From Sipunculus nudus (Eukaryota > Annelida > Sipuncula > Golfingiida > Sipunculidae): a stretch of DNA of 64,000 bases. The DNA lies in assembly GCA_026874595.1 (NCBI GenBank), contig CM049308.1, forward strand, positions 43,283,327-43,347,326, given 5' to 3'. The position numbers and the translations under genes are program-made. The notes below the pieces were generated by a model that was not told the DNA's origin, made no database searches, and saw only the letters and a list, made by a program, of their open reading frames with translations. This document shows positions 35,880-59,696 of this stretch, in pieces (the stretch's first letter is position 1; every line of letters begins with the position of its first letter).

Positions 35880-36057
35880 TGTGAACAGACATATAATCCT
35901 TATCAGACACTGTGCCTGATATCTGATATGATCCTGAGTAGCTACTCTGCAGACTGATACTGATGTGTTATCCTGAGTAGCTACCCTGCAGACTGATACT
36001 GATGTGTAATCCTCAGTAGCTACCCTGTAGACTGATATCTGATGTATGATCCTGAGT
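35880..36057 (+). repeat. 40-bp minisatellite, left part
   Basis: Units ATCCTGAGTAGCTACCCTGC / AGACTGATATCTGATGTGTA. The array breaks off at CCTGAGTA and resumes at about 40470. Confidence 0.9.
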
Positions 36058-37474
36058 ACCGTAAAATCTCCACTTAAAACCGCACTTCCGATTAAAACCG
36101 CACCCAGACTTCGCCGAAATTCCTGGTGAGACACCGCGAGGGGCTCAAATACTAAGAACCCCCCTTTAAAACCGCACCAACTTTCGCTACAGAATGATTT
36201 GACAAAAGACACAATCAAGCTATCATCTAGAAATGAACACGCGTAGGTTGCGACTCGGCCATTCCTGTCCACTTTAAAAATTCCTTGGGCATTTTATTTA
36301 AACACATCATAACACTTTTTTGCAGGGTCACTCAAGCAAGAAGTTTGGGAAGACGTAAGGGCCGGTGAACATCTGCCTGTTTATACAGATTTTATATTCC
36401 GTGCTGTATTCTTGTTTGCTACTGATTTATCATTATATTTTGGAAAAAATATTCTGCTGATCCATTTCAAGTCACTGTATATTTTATTTCTAAAAGTAAT
36501 ATTTTGAAATCTTCATTTTTGATGAAAATTACATTTTCTGGAATTACTCGGAAGATTCAAATCATTTTCATACCGGTTACTTCGGTATTATCATTGTCAC
36601 ATCTTACGTTGACATCGCTTAATGTCACAATTTGCTGGTGCGTTTGAAAACATCGCTGGTCAACTTAACTAGATATCAAAGTAACTGAAGTTACCTTGTC
36701 GAGTTTCGCACGTATAGGAAACATGACGCTTGAAAACGAGTGATTTTAAGGCAAAATTAAAGTGGCTAGTCGGAGTAAACAAGTTTTTTTCCTGAAGAAA
36801 GTTTCCGTGTGGGGAGCCATTTTGTCAAGGCAGTGTTCGCGCAAGGCACACTGGGACGAAATAGGTGGCTGTTCTGTTTACCATCCACCGCGTACAGCCG
36901 TTCAAAATATTCTAAGCAGAATACCGGGGCGTTCCAACACATTGCGGCACTCAGACTTGATTTTAAAACGATCGTCTGCCATTGTGTGACTCCTTACAAT
37001 GTCAGCTTTTTATTCATTTTACGTTTTAAACAAATAATCATTGCTAAATAAAACCGCAAATGGGTTTAAAGTCGGCTTTTATTTCAATTTTGCTTGACCA
37101 TGCCTAACGAAGTGGGCCGCTGTGTGTTACAGCAGGGTTGTTGTAAAGTATTATTTGGTGACAATCACCAAGATTTTATAACAAGTTATATATCCATGAA
37201 AACTAATCAGCAATATTTAATTTATAAATAACAAATTATCGTAAATAATACATTTATACACGGCTCCAATGCATGCGAGACTGCTGCTAAGAACGGCCTT
37301 CGAAAGTTCCAATATTATCGCCCACTCGCCGGCCCAAAAACGATGTCTGACAGGAAGATATATAGGAAACCCTTCTAGTATAAACCGCACAGTGCTTTCA
37401 GGAAATCAACCCGTTTTCAAGATTTTGAATTTCTTGATTAAACCGCGGTTTTAAGTGGAGATTTTACGGTACCG
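36056..37474. mobile_element. pogo/Tigger-like non-autonomous TIR element
   Basis: The left end CCGTAAAATCTCCACTTAAA-ACCGC (from 36058) and right end GCGGTTTTAAGTGGAGATTT-TACGG (to about 37470) are perfect inverted repeats of 25 bp or more, each bordered by TA. AAAACCGCA motifs recur inside each end. TA target and ends of this kind fit Tc1/mariner pogo/Tigger elements. Short frames inside (for example 36762-36989) show no transposase motif. Confidence 0.65.
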
Positions 37475-39920: not shown

Positions 39921-40469
39921 TATGACCTTTGAGCGCCATCTATTGACAATTTGATGAACGAAGAAGTATCTGAACGTGAACGCAGGTTTAATTGCCAAAG
40001 AACGTATGGTCTTTGGTTATCTTTTGTTTTAAAGTTTATTTTAAAAGAAAAGATATGTTCGAGAAATATCTTAAAATAATGTTTTACCGGTATTGCAGCC
40101 ATACTCAAATACAGGTACAACCGTTAGTCTGGTTAGAGTGCATAATTTGGTAAGTGAATATCGATCTTTTATCAATCATTGCGTGAAAATGGCCGTGGTA
40201 TATAACTGACTCAGTTTTATAATACATATAAGCCTGTTAAAAATATTAATTTTACATTTTATAAAATTAACAGTGAATAAAATTAATATACAAATATGCA
40301 GTATCATAAAATATACATTCTCAGTATTCACTTCCTCCTTCCTCAGCCTATTATATAAACTTATTTATTTTACATGGATTGTTCAAATAGTTATTATAAC
40401 TAATCGAGGCACTCTCCATGGCTCCGGTGATGGCGTTCGGTAGTCTGCAGAGTTGGAGGAGAAAACCAT
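39921..40469. other. Right end of the inserted block, no feature seen
   Basis: AT-rich DNA up to the resumption of the 40-bp array; no gene or terminal repeat matching the left side was found. Confidence 0.5.
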
Positions 40470-40690
40470 GAGTAATCCTGAGTAGCTACCCAGCAGACTG
40501 ATATCTGATGTGTAATCCTGAGTAGCTACCCAGCAGACTGATATCTGATGTGTAATCCTGAGTAGCTACCCTGCAGACTGATATCTGATGTGTAATCCTG
40601 AGTAGCTACCTTGCATACTAATATCTGATATGTAATCCTGAGTAGCTACCCAGCAGACTGATATCTGATGTGTATACCTGAGTAGCTAAC
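40470..40690 (+). repeat. 40-bp minisatellite, right part
   Basis: The same unit as 35880-36057 (ATCCTGAGTAGCTACCCAGC), five to six copies. Confidence 0.9.
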
Positions 40691-40924
40691 CAAGCCTTTG
40701 ATATGAGTCTCTGTAATTCAGATAGATATCTGGAGGCCTTGGTTATTGGTCTCTGTAATTCAATTGGACATCTTGAGGCCTTAGTTACTGGTTTCTATAA
40801 TGCAAATGGATACATACCTGTTTGACTTGGTTACTAGTCTCTGTAATTTAGATTGAAATGTGTATCAATTCAGTACAAGTAGTTAATAGTAATACTTTAT
40901 AGCATTTTACTGATGGTCAAGGCT

Positions 40925-49764: not shown

Positions 49765-49854
49765 GTATGGTCAACAGAGGTCTATATAAGGGTGTTATAT
49801 ATTCTTCAGGGTATGCTCTATGTAAAGGCCCATTAATGGTTTTAGGTACAAGCC

Positions 49855-50660
49855 TACAGTGTGTGCTCTATATATTAATGGTTAATATAAAAACCTACAA
49901 AGTTTGCTCTTTATAAGAGGTTTATATAAAAACCTACAGAGTGCACTATATAAGGGTTTTATATAAAAACCTACAGAGTGTGCTCTATATAAGGGTTTTA
50001 TATAAAAACCTACAGAGTGTGCTCTATATAAGGGTTTTATATAAAAACCTACAGAGTGTGCACTATATAAGGGTTTTATATAAAAACCTACAGAGTGTGC
50101 TTTATATAAGGGTTTTATATAAAAATCTACAGAGTGTGCTCTATATAAGGGTTTTATATAAAAACCTACAGAGTGTGCTCTACATATTAATGGTTTATAT
50201 AAAAACCTACAGAGTGTGCTCTATATAAGGGTTTTATATAAAACCTACAGAGTGTGCTCTATATAAGGGTTTTATATAAAATCCTACAGAGTGTGCACTA
50301 TATAAGGGTTATATATAAAGGTTTCCAGGGAGTGATCTACATTAGAGGTTTATGTAAGTCTACATATTGTGGTCTGTATCAGGGGATTATATATAATTCT
50401 ACTAGACTCTGCTCAATATAAGTGGTTTATATTTTCTGTAGGGTGTGCTCTCTATTAAGGCCCATTAAGAGGTTTATATATAGGCCTACAGAGTGTGCTC
50501 TACATGAGGAGTTTATATATAATCCTACAGAGTGTGCTCTACATAAGGGGTTTATCTGTAAGTCTATACATATTGTGCTCTGTGTATTGAGTTTTATGTA
50601 AGTCTACAAGACTGCTTTATATAATGGGTTTACATATAAGTCTATTTATGTACAGATTGT
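49855..50660 (+). repeat. 39-bp TATA-rich tandem array in intron 7
   Basis: The unit AAAAACCTACAGAGTGTGCT / CTATATAAGGGTTTTATAT is near-perfect from about 49930 to 50330 (ten units) and degraded to about 50660. Each unit carries TATATAAGG, a TATA-box-like string. Its length is a multiple of three, which keeps a false frame open. Confidence 0.9.
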
Positions 50661-57800: not shown

Positions 57801-57864
57801 CTCTGTCATCAGGGCTTTAGGTATATAGCCTGAACAGGGTTCATATTGTGTCCTCTTCTTGTAG

Positions 57865-58107
57865 AGAAAGCAGAGAATGGTGACATTCCTCATGAGCAGC
57901 AAGAGTTGATGGATAAAAAAGAGCGAGATTCCTCGTTCCTGTTGAAGAGTGATGATTCTCGCTCACACATATCTGGGATCAGCTCACAGCCCTCACATTC
58001 ATCACACTCACACTCTAACCAGTCTAACCAGTCAGGATTAACAGCCAGACTGCCCTACGACAAGTACAACTTTCCTCGTCAGATCCTACAGAACTTGGGT
58101 GTTATCG
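57865..58107 (+). CDS. PTK7: PTK7 exon 10: juxtamembrane region up to the glycine loop
   Basis: Encodes residues 478-557 plus parts of codons 477 and 558. The acceptor TCCTCTTCTTGTAG ends at 57864; the donor GTAGGT starts at 58108. The sequence is polar and low complexity, with a Ser/His/Asn/Gln-rich run at residues 516-532, and probably unstructured. The end, Tyr-Asn-Phe-Pro-Arg-Gln-Ile-Leu-Gln (544-552), matches the family pattern His-Phe-Pro-Arg-x-x-Leu-Gln just before the kinase fold, and Gly558 of the glycine loop is split across the next intron. Confidence 0.92.
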
Positions 58108-58154
58108 GTAGGTTTTGTGCAGCAGCACCCTGATTTTGTTTAACTTTTATATTT

Positions 58155-58532
58155 TAGAGGGTAATTATATCAATGTGTTTTGTGTGTTTCAGGTTAAAAT
58201 GAACAGATAAATGCGTTTTGTGTGTTTCAGGAAAAAGAAAACATATGAATGTGTTTTGTGTGATTCAGGGAAAAGAAACCATATAAATGTGTTTTGTTTG
58301 ATTCAGGTAAAAGAGAACATATAAATGTGTTTTGTGTGATTCAGGTAAAAGAGAACATATAAATGTGTTTTGTGTGATTCAGGTAAAAGAGAACATATAA
58401 ATGTGTTTTGTGTGATTCAGGTAAAAGAGAACATATAAATGTGTTTTGTGTGTTTCAGGAAAAAGAAAACATATAAATGTGTTTTGTGTGTTTCAGGAAA
58501 AAGAGAACATAAATGTGTTTTGTGTGTTTCAG
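58155..58532 (+). repeat. 38-bp tandem array of splice-acceptor-like units
   Basis: TTCAG ends at 58192, 58230, 58268, 58306, 58344, 58382, 58420, 58458, 58496 and 58532: nine exact 38-bp steps except the last, which is 36. Each unit reads AAATGTGTTTTGTGTG(T/A)TTCAG followed by GTAAAAG (58306, 58344, 58382, 58420), GTTAAA (58192), GAAAAAG or GGAAAAG. The tenth is the real acceptor of exon 11, whose exon starts GTAAAGG. The array fills intron 10 from about 58155 to the exon. Confidence 0.95.
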
Positions 58533-58765
58533 GTAAAGGTGTATATGGAGACGTGTTCCTGGCCCGCATGCACGGTGTCAGAGACGGGGACCAGGATATG
58601 CTGGTCGTGGTCAAGTCTTTGTTATCCAGAGATGAGAATCATCACTTTGAATATCGGCGTGAAGTGGACATGTTTGGCAAACTGAACCATGATAATGTTG
58701 TACATCTTCTTGGGGTGGCTAGGGAAATCGAACCTCAGCTCATTATTACAGAGTATTGTGAATGG
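58533..58765 (+). CDS. PTK7: PTK7 exon 11: N-lobe of the pseudokinase domain
   Basis: Encodes residues 559-635 plus two bases of codon 558. The glycine loop Gly-Lys-Gly-Val-Tyr-Gly-Asp-Val is at 558-565, Val-Val-Val-Lys585 supplies the nucleotide-contacting lysine, Arg-Arg-Glu601 the alphaC glutamate, and Met-Phe-Gly-Lys-Leu-Asn-His (604-610) is a PTK7 family block. The exon begins GTAAAGG directly after TTTCAG; this acceptor is the last of ten similar ones in the 38-bp array upstream. The start at 58533 is chosen because it restores the loop in frame with exon 10. Donor GTAAGT at 58766, phase 0. Confidence 0.93.
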
Positions 58766-59114
58766 GTAAGTTCACTTCAGTGCTACACTTTAAACATGGC
58801 AAGTGTCAAATTCAATAAGTGTCATAACTCATTGCTTTTTACTGGCAATGATGCCAGATACTTGTTTATGTCAAAACTTTTGAGGACTGCATACCTGTTT
58901 CATTTTTAATTGGAAAATGGTGCTGTTATACCTTTGCTATTATGTCACACTATAATGATCCAAAATTCATAGACAGTTTTACTATACAAAAGAAATTAGA
59001 TCTCCTAATAAATGGTTTTCGAACACAGATCTGTCAAGTGTTTTACCATGCTGTAACCAGGTGTATTTTGGTACAATAGATAAACAGATAATGATTGAAC
59101 ATTTGTGTTTGCAG
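58766..59114 (+). other. PTK7: Intron 11, no feature seen
   Basis: Phase-0 intron inside the pseudokinase domain, at the hinge; reading on from exon 11 gives a stop near 58907. Confidence 0.85.
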
Positions 59115-59696
59115 GGTGACCTGAAGCAGTTCTTGTGGGCAATGAAGAAAGACATGGGGAGACTCCAGAACGTCAAAGTGCCTCCACTGACAGTGGCACA
59201 GAAGGTCGCCATGTGCAACCAGGTGGCGCTGGGAATGGAGCACCTGGCCCACCATCGCTTCGTACATAAGGATCTGGCTGCTCGTAACGTGCTGCTCTCG
59301 CCCAGCTTGGATGTCAAAATCACGTGTCTCAGTCTCTGTCGTGATGTTTATGCGGCAGAATATTTTCTGTTTCACCAACAGATGATTCCGTTGAGGTGGA
59401 TGCCGGCAGAAACAGTAATGGAAGATGATTATTCCACTAAAAGTGATGTATGGGCCTTTTCAATATTTTGCTATGAGGTGTTCACACTTGGCGATGTTCC
59501 CTACAGAAATAGAACTAATGAGGAGGTGCTGAAAGGCCTAAAAACAGGAAGCCTCGAGCTGGATCCTATGCCAAACTGCCCAGAGGAAATGCTGACTCTA
59601 TTGGCAAAGTGCATGGCAGATAGTCCCAAGGACAGGCCATCGTTTAGTGAAATTGCTCTGTCAATGAGTGAAATGACTGTGGATAGTGATGTTTAG
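59115..59696 (+). CDS. PTK7: PTK7 exon 12: hinge, C-lobe and stop codon
   Basis: Encodes residues 636-828 and TAG at 59694-59696. The acceptor ATTTGTGTTTGCAG ends at 59114. It opens with Gly-Asp-Leu-Lys-Gln-Phe-Leu, as in PTK7. His-Lys-Asp-Leu-Ala-Ala-Arg-Asn is at 686-693, so catalytic-loop Asp688 and Asn693 are present. Residues 706-708 are Cys-Leu-Ser where active kinases have DFG (vertebrate PTK7 has Ala-Leu-Gly). Arg-Trp-Met, Ser-Thr-Lys-Ser-Asp-Val-Trp-Ala-Phe and Pro-Lys-Asp-Arg-Pro-Ser-Phe-Ser-Glu-Ile follow, and the protein ends Thr-Val-Asp-Ser-Asp-Val, close to the vertebrate terminus. One exon carries the whole C-lobe. Predicted catalytically dead; a signalling scaffold. Confidence 0.95.
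   Translation, partial: GDLKQFLWAMKKDMGRLQNVKVPPLTVAQKVAMCNQVALGMEHLAHHRFVHKDLAARNVLLSPSLDVKITCLSLCRDVYAAEYFLFHQQMIPLRWMPAETVMEDDYSTKSDVWAFSIFCYEVFTLGDVPYRNRTNEEVLKGLKTGSLELDPMPNCPEEMLTLLAKCMADSPKDRPSFSEIALSMSEMTVDSDV

Follow-up and report, generated by a model that had tools for sequence, protein, structure and literature searches.

Minisatellites that span intron-exon borders have been described in amphioxus, where they were termed 'mirage' minisatellites and occur in the Adh3, TnC, globin and PGBD5 genes (PMC3087553, PMC3902484). According to the available text of these reports, the repeats cross the border at either end of the intron and many units carry AG/GT signals. The arrays evolve in concert and have diverged edges, and canonical splicing is reported for them (PMC3087553, PMC3902484). 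Splice signals are supplied by tandem duplication also in the Rogers model of intron gain and in the potato RdRp gene, where the duplicated piece itself has an intron-exon structure, as far as the accessible part of that source describes it (PMC4974935). At the ratchet points of Drosophila, an acceptor is directly followed by sequence beginning with GT (PMC8605326, available text). Finally, the minisatellite VNTR6-1 in an intron of TERT has a 38-bp unit and was linked to splicing (PMC11830802, available text).

The array described here has the same unit length of 38 bp and lies in front of a kinase exon of Sipunculus nudus, within a window of 64,000 nucleotides that was analysed as a whole and to which the position numbers below refer. 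Its units span the intron-exon border, with 19 of 20 positions matching the intron end and 17 of 25 the exon start. They carry copies of the splice signal (TTCAG in 10/10 units) and show signs of concerted evolution with a diverged edge, as identity to the unit is 0.84-0.89 for the four intron-side units and 0.92-1.0 for the three exon-side units. Judged by these anatomical features of its letters, the array is probably a mirage minisatellite. It differs from the described ones in that it was found in another genome (1.43 Gb) and is known here from sequence alone. The unit length falls within the 10-72 bp given for amphioxus Adh3 and below the 150-160 bp given for globin in the available text. 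Unlike in potato RdRp, as far as that gene is described in the source (PMC4974935), no new intron is seen; many short copies extend the 3' part of an existing intron. For the TERT repeat, the accessible text gives no sign of an exon-border make-up (PMC11830802).

The host gene encodes a receptor pseudokinase and is read on the forward strand, like all features of the array and its exons. The upstream juxtamembrane exon (57864-58107, 5' limit approximate) ends with a split codon (G/GT) and is followed by the donor GTAGGT at 58108. It is separated by a 425-bp intron containing the array (58108-58532) from the 234-nt exon of the pseudokinase N-lobe (58533-58766; Pfam PF07714, PDB 6vg3). The last coding exon (59116-59693) encodes the C-lobe, as seen in the joined translation and its matches to Pfam and 6vg3, and is followed by the stop codon. 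When joined, the three exons form a single open frame with the degenerate catalytic motifs VHKDLAARN and KITCLSLCRDVY, so that HKD stands for HRD and DFG is absent. The best match among solved structures was inactive tyrosine-protein kinase 7 (6vg3, E 9.1e-95), followed by a runner-up with 7.3e-54. Upstream, six of ten scanned ORFs gave matches to the Ig family. On these sequence grounds the gene is regarded as a PTK7 ortholog. A close paralog was considered and rejected: the kinase exon matches four places in the 1.43-Gb assembly, and the other three are only 32-33% identical. Human PTK7 aligns across the exon border without a gap (IGKG vs LGKS), and 58532 can therefore be taken as the conserved acceptor. 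The exon begins with GTAAAGG, as originally predicted, because its codons GGT AAA GGT code for the glycine loop.

Splitting the array at TTCAG gave ten acceptor-like ends at 58192, 58230, 58268, 58306, 58344, 58382, 58420, 58458, 58496 and 58532; the first eight intervals measure 38 bp and the final one 36 bp. TRF reported a repeat of period 38 at 58167-58537 with 9.8 copies, 91% matches and a score of 581. Both agree with the original prediction of ten tandem acceptor units. The first unit (58155-58192) is half-degenerate, since 23 of its last 24 nt agree with the functional acceptor and its 5' part is unlike the unit. It is followed by nine units ending in TTCAG (58193-58532), namely eight of 38 bp and the last one of 36 bp (58497-58532). 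Over their last 24 nt, the ten sites share 22-24 positions with the functional acceptor 58532, and the sites 58458, 58496 and 58532 have the same sequence there. Three central units are identical to one another. In site order, the AG is followed by GTTAAA, GAAAAA, GGAAAA, four times GTAAAA and twice GAAAAA, and by GTAAAG at the exon. The donor-like start claimed for five upstream units was thus found in five of nine (GTAAAA in four, GTTAAA in one), while the other four lack the GT (GAAAAA in three, GGAAAA in one). Position +5 is never a G in the units. Variable columns made up 3/18 in the acceptor half and 9/20 in the exon-like half (p 0.086; 8/20 without an indel, p 0.16). Together with the ten intact AGs, this is a weak hint of constraint in the letters.

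The unit resembles the exon that follows it. The first 25 nt of the exon (58533-58557) share 17 positions with the unit consensus; this length was picked after inspection, in a register that was not. This score was matched at only 4 of 63,514 other positions in the window and reached in none of 2000 shuffles, and the similarity ends beyond nucleotide 25 (2/13). From this likeness, the unit appears to be composed of about 13 nt from the end of the intron and about 25 nt from the start of the exon. A tandem duplication over the exon border thus probably gave rise to the array. This had been proposed in the original prediction and is supported by the similarity at this locus and by the fact that 8 of 14 exon-abutting arrays of the genome, the present one among them, show strong similarity. 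The exonic part has drifted (68%) and the acceptor part has been kept (19/20), which would fit homogenisation that reaches the acceptor while selection protects the exon. The array itself was found once in the 1.43-Gb assembly. A genome search with it, by a method that skips very common words, returned its own place and two stretches of a 39-bp satellite on C8, with identities of 67 and 69%. A dispersed element was rejected as its source, as the unit of the C8 satellite is a different sequence with a merely similar T/G-rich stretch.

The genome of S. nudus was surveyed for places where a perfect acceptor motif occurs three times at the spacing of a repeat, and exons were called by eye and not blind. 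Thirteen of 36 acceptor-motif arrays ended at an apparent exon compared to none of ten arrays of the reversed motif (Fisher p 0.042, pooled). Without the GTAA set the ratio was 8/30 vs 0/10 (p 0.17), and for TTTTCAG alone 4/10 vs 0/10 (p 0.087). Among the TTTCAGGTAA arrays, five of six ended at an apparent exon that shared the acceptor of the last unit. The remaining one (C2:96494k) was rejected as such a case, since by eye neither its 3' end nor the sequence upstream shows an exon. Pfam supported three of these exons, namely with Ion_trans (E 4.4e-13), a 5'-nucleotidase C-terminal domain (0.0014) and a galactosyltransferase (3e-19), and gave no match for two. TTTTCAG with any following sequence led to an apparent exon at four of ten places among the matches listed for the first 21 Mb of C1; the exons matched MMS19_N (5.4e-13) and Na_Ca_ex (4.3e-6), and two were unsupported. 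For TTTGCAG, this was the case at four of 20 places among the matches listed for C1 and 84 Mb of C2, with an EF-hand (7.2e-7), a weak UCH match (0.05) and two unsupported exons. Over all 13 survey exons, six had a Pfam match below E 0.01, one a weak match (0.05) and six no support. Beyond Pfam, the survey exons presumably include DTL-, PUS1-, USP39- and KChIP-like ones, among others. All ten TTTTCAG and all 20 TTTGCAG places listed were fetched at their 3' ends, and four arrays that extended beyond the fetched stretch (L063 with TTTTCAG; L084, L085 and L090 with TTTGCAG) were counted as having no exon. Two of the 13 cases are loose: the last unit of L056 is irregular, and in L091 the units lost the AG that matches the real acceptor. 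In the latter array (C1:52804480-52805130), which stands before the EF-hand exon, the acceptor-matching position has no AG, and another TTTTTGCAG is repeated upstream.

The reversed motif GACTTTT occurred at 14 distinct places among the matches listed for C1 and 6 Mb of C2. Ten of them were fetched at both ends and four were dropped, belonging to the same dispersed family as C1:10683451; one control array (C2:4693514, L080) ran beyond the fetched 5' end. By eye, no exon border lay inside a unit in the ten fetched control arrays. Three had exons near but not at their edge, at a distance of about 100 bp (L073), about 200 bp (L075) and some hundreds of bases on the opposite strand (L076). Genome-wide, 2738 matches were counted for TTTTCAG and 1373 for its reverse, compared to 556 and 600 for TTTGCAG. 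Because long arrays account for most of these matches, the counts are not taken as a sign of enrichment. A crude extrapolation, based each time on a single stretch, leads to about 270 cases in the genome from the four TTTTCAG cases in 21 Mb or about 30 from the four TTTGCAG cases in about 195 Mb.

Similarity between exon and unit was compared in 14 arrays including the PTK7-like one. It was strong in eight (at most 2 of 2000 shuffles), marginal in two (31 and 50 of 2000) and not significant in four; the MMS19-like exon was identical to its unit over 25 of 25 positions. The outermost unit or units were among the most diverged in eight of nine phased arrays, with B4GALT as the exception, whose units are poorly phased owing to the higher-order structure of that array.

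The reading preferred for the PTK7-like locus, with a probability of roughly 75%, is a mirage minisatellite that was seeded at the exon border and in which splicing mostly passes over the upstream acceptors. A tandem duplication across the 3' end of the intron would have copied a stretch of about 38 bp, of which ~13 nt came from the end of the intron and ~25 nt from the start of the exon. The upstream copies, then intronic, would have expanded and been homogenised. In most transcripts, the upstream exon would be joined to the last copy, which is proposed to be chosen by exon definition, because no other acceptor stands directly before an exon that is intact and has a donor of its own. The sites upstream would yield at most minor and largely nonsense products, possibly with a little of an in-frame isoform from 58496. 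More generally, the arrays at exon borders in this genome are most likely harmless repeat growth and not a special splicing machine.

The branch-site candidates speak against a simple use of the last acceptor. Matches to yUnAy with the A at 58133, 58143 and 58149 lie in a stretch (58133-58159) that also holds an additional acceptor-like TTTTAG, which ends at 58157, 35 bp 5' of the first TTCAG site. A fourth match lies inside the array (A at 58301). Three of the four thus precede the array, and no yUnAy match was found 12-60 nt before 58532; a weaker UnA stands 20 nt upstream of each acceptor site. Given branch sites before the array and the identical 24 nt at 58458, 58496 and 58532, simple scanning for the first AG would favour early sites.

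Translation bore out the expected outcome of the upstream acceptors. Use of 58496 adds 36 nt, open in frame, which means 12 extra codons in the glycine loop, and this is the only one of the nine upstream acceptors that yields an open product. The sites 58268 and 58382 are in phase but run into stops, and the other six shift the frame and then meet a stop. For the seven acceptors from 58192 to 58420 stops follow within about 20 codons, while 58458 leads to a frame shift with a later stop. The last unit with its 36 bp is a multiple of three by a one-in-three chance and was not counted as evidence of selection.

Several acceptors could be in use instead, with the length of the array setting the ratio of canonical, +12-codon and nonsense products. 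Near-identical acceptors with all ten AGs intact, the open insert from 58496, the somewhat less variable acceptor half and, by analogy, the splicing-linked TERT repeat (PMC11830802, available text) all speak for such tuning. Eight of the nine upstream sites would nevertheless give a product with a stop, and amphioxus mirages are reported to splice normally in the available text (PMC3087553, PMC3902484). At the PTK7-like locus 10/10 units retain the AG, compared to 38/40, 73/77, 7/10, 14/14, 16/25, 7/8, 7/9 and 15/17 in eight other arrays. On average the AG was better conserved than the other columns in six of these nine arrays and less well in three, and it shows no clear constraint, since the arrays were found by that same motif. 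Splicing tuned by copy number is considered unlikely.

That the repeat is a coincidental intronic minisatellite which happens to adjoin an exon, with GTAAA present in both by chance, is very unlikely. The window is indeed rich in minisatellites, as 20 arrays with periods of 20-120 make up 12.9% of its bases. However, the similarity extends beyond GTAAA, as only 2 of 97 window positions with this start equal the score of the exon over the next 20 nt. The functional acceptor keeps the register of the array, and this anatomy recurs at other exon borders; chance similarity was dismissed on these three points. Recursive splicing, in which the CAG/GTAAAA units would act as successive zero-length exons that regenerate a donor and are corrected step by step, was judged extremely unlikely. 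The resemblance to ratchet points noted in the original prediction is present in the letters of five of nine upstream units but is not required as a mechanism. Of the eight exon-abutting arrays that were found without asking for GT, four have units starting with GT and the other four start with CA, CC, GC or TG, so that ratchet splicing was rejected as a general reason for the arrays. The GT is well kept inside several arrays (e.g. 39/40, 62/77 and 14/14), and four survey arrays combine GTAA units with a GTC or GTT exon, although those were selected by the GTAA pattern. By a simple count of GTRAGT matches, the units were more donor-like than the exon only in L056 among the eight. At the PTK7-like locus, the missing GT in four upstream units and the lack of a G at +5 in any unit argue against ratcheting, as does the short intron of 425 bp, compared to the mostly long introns of Drosophila ratchet points described in the available text (PMC8605326). 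The locus differs from those ratchet points also in its repeated array. With GT in 5/9 units here and in 4/8 arrays, ratchet splicing is possible, but not needed.

Under the preferred reading of a border-seeded mirage array, the PTK7-like repeat is of an already known kind, and the additional result is its recurrence in this genome. The survey suggests that exon-border minisatellites, which a literature search found so described only for lancelets, recur in S. nudus as well. With its ten almost identical acceptors, of which three do not differ over 24 nt, the intron is a natural experiment on 3' splice-site choice: sequence strength can hardly decide between such sites, so position, branch site or exon definition must. 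Its value lies in this experiment and in the class of arrays, not in evidence for a new mechanism. Should the copy number vary between individuals, this would connect repeat instability with splicing and with the origin of new introns or exon extensions. It appears rather unlikely that the arrays form a genome-wide class, crudely of hundreds, in which many functional 3' splice sites co-evolve with expandable repeats and allelic copy number continually alters acceptor use. If true, this would mean heritable splicing variation in genes like PTK7, and in-frame arrays would add peptide repeats.

Further arrays were observed close to exons. At C6:39698700-39701900 (L048, L106, L049), a 39-bp array stands before the 5'-nucleotidase-like exon, and its upstream acceptors would add 13-residue repeats. 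The exon-proximal units are near-identical and open in one frame, and the outer units have diverged. Near one of the control arrays (L073, C1:43484130-43484700), an apparent donor-side mirage repeats the end of an exon, which we take to be aminopeptidase-like, and its GTAAGT/GTGAGT donor 6.9 times at 54 bp; it is open in one frame across the fetched stretch. At L055 (C1:1727000-1728100), an apparent exon is read from the opposite strand, and a 41-bp array lies about 10-20 bp past its donor. A possible donor-side case was also seen in the window itself, where sequence resembling a 39-bp minisatellite by eye (49780-50319; TRF 49834-50319) starts about 15 nt past 49765, the likely donor of an Ig exon in the PTK7-like gene. 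The array content of the window stands beside 2.2% of bases in 32 exon-centred kinase-exon loci, a comparison that is not like for like. Two further arrays of the window (35916-36058 and 40468-40692), which are 4.4 kb apart, share a nearly identical 39/40-bp unit.
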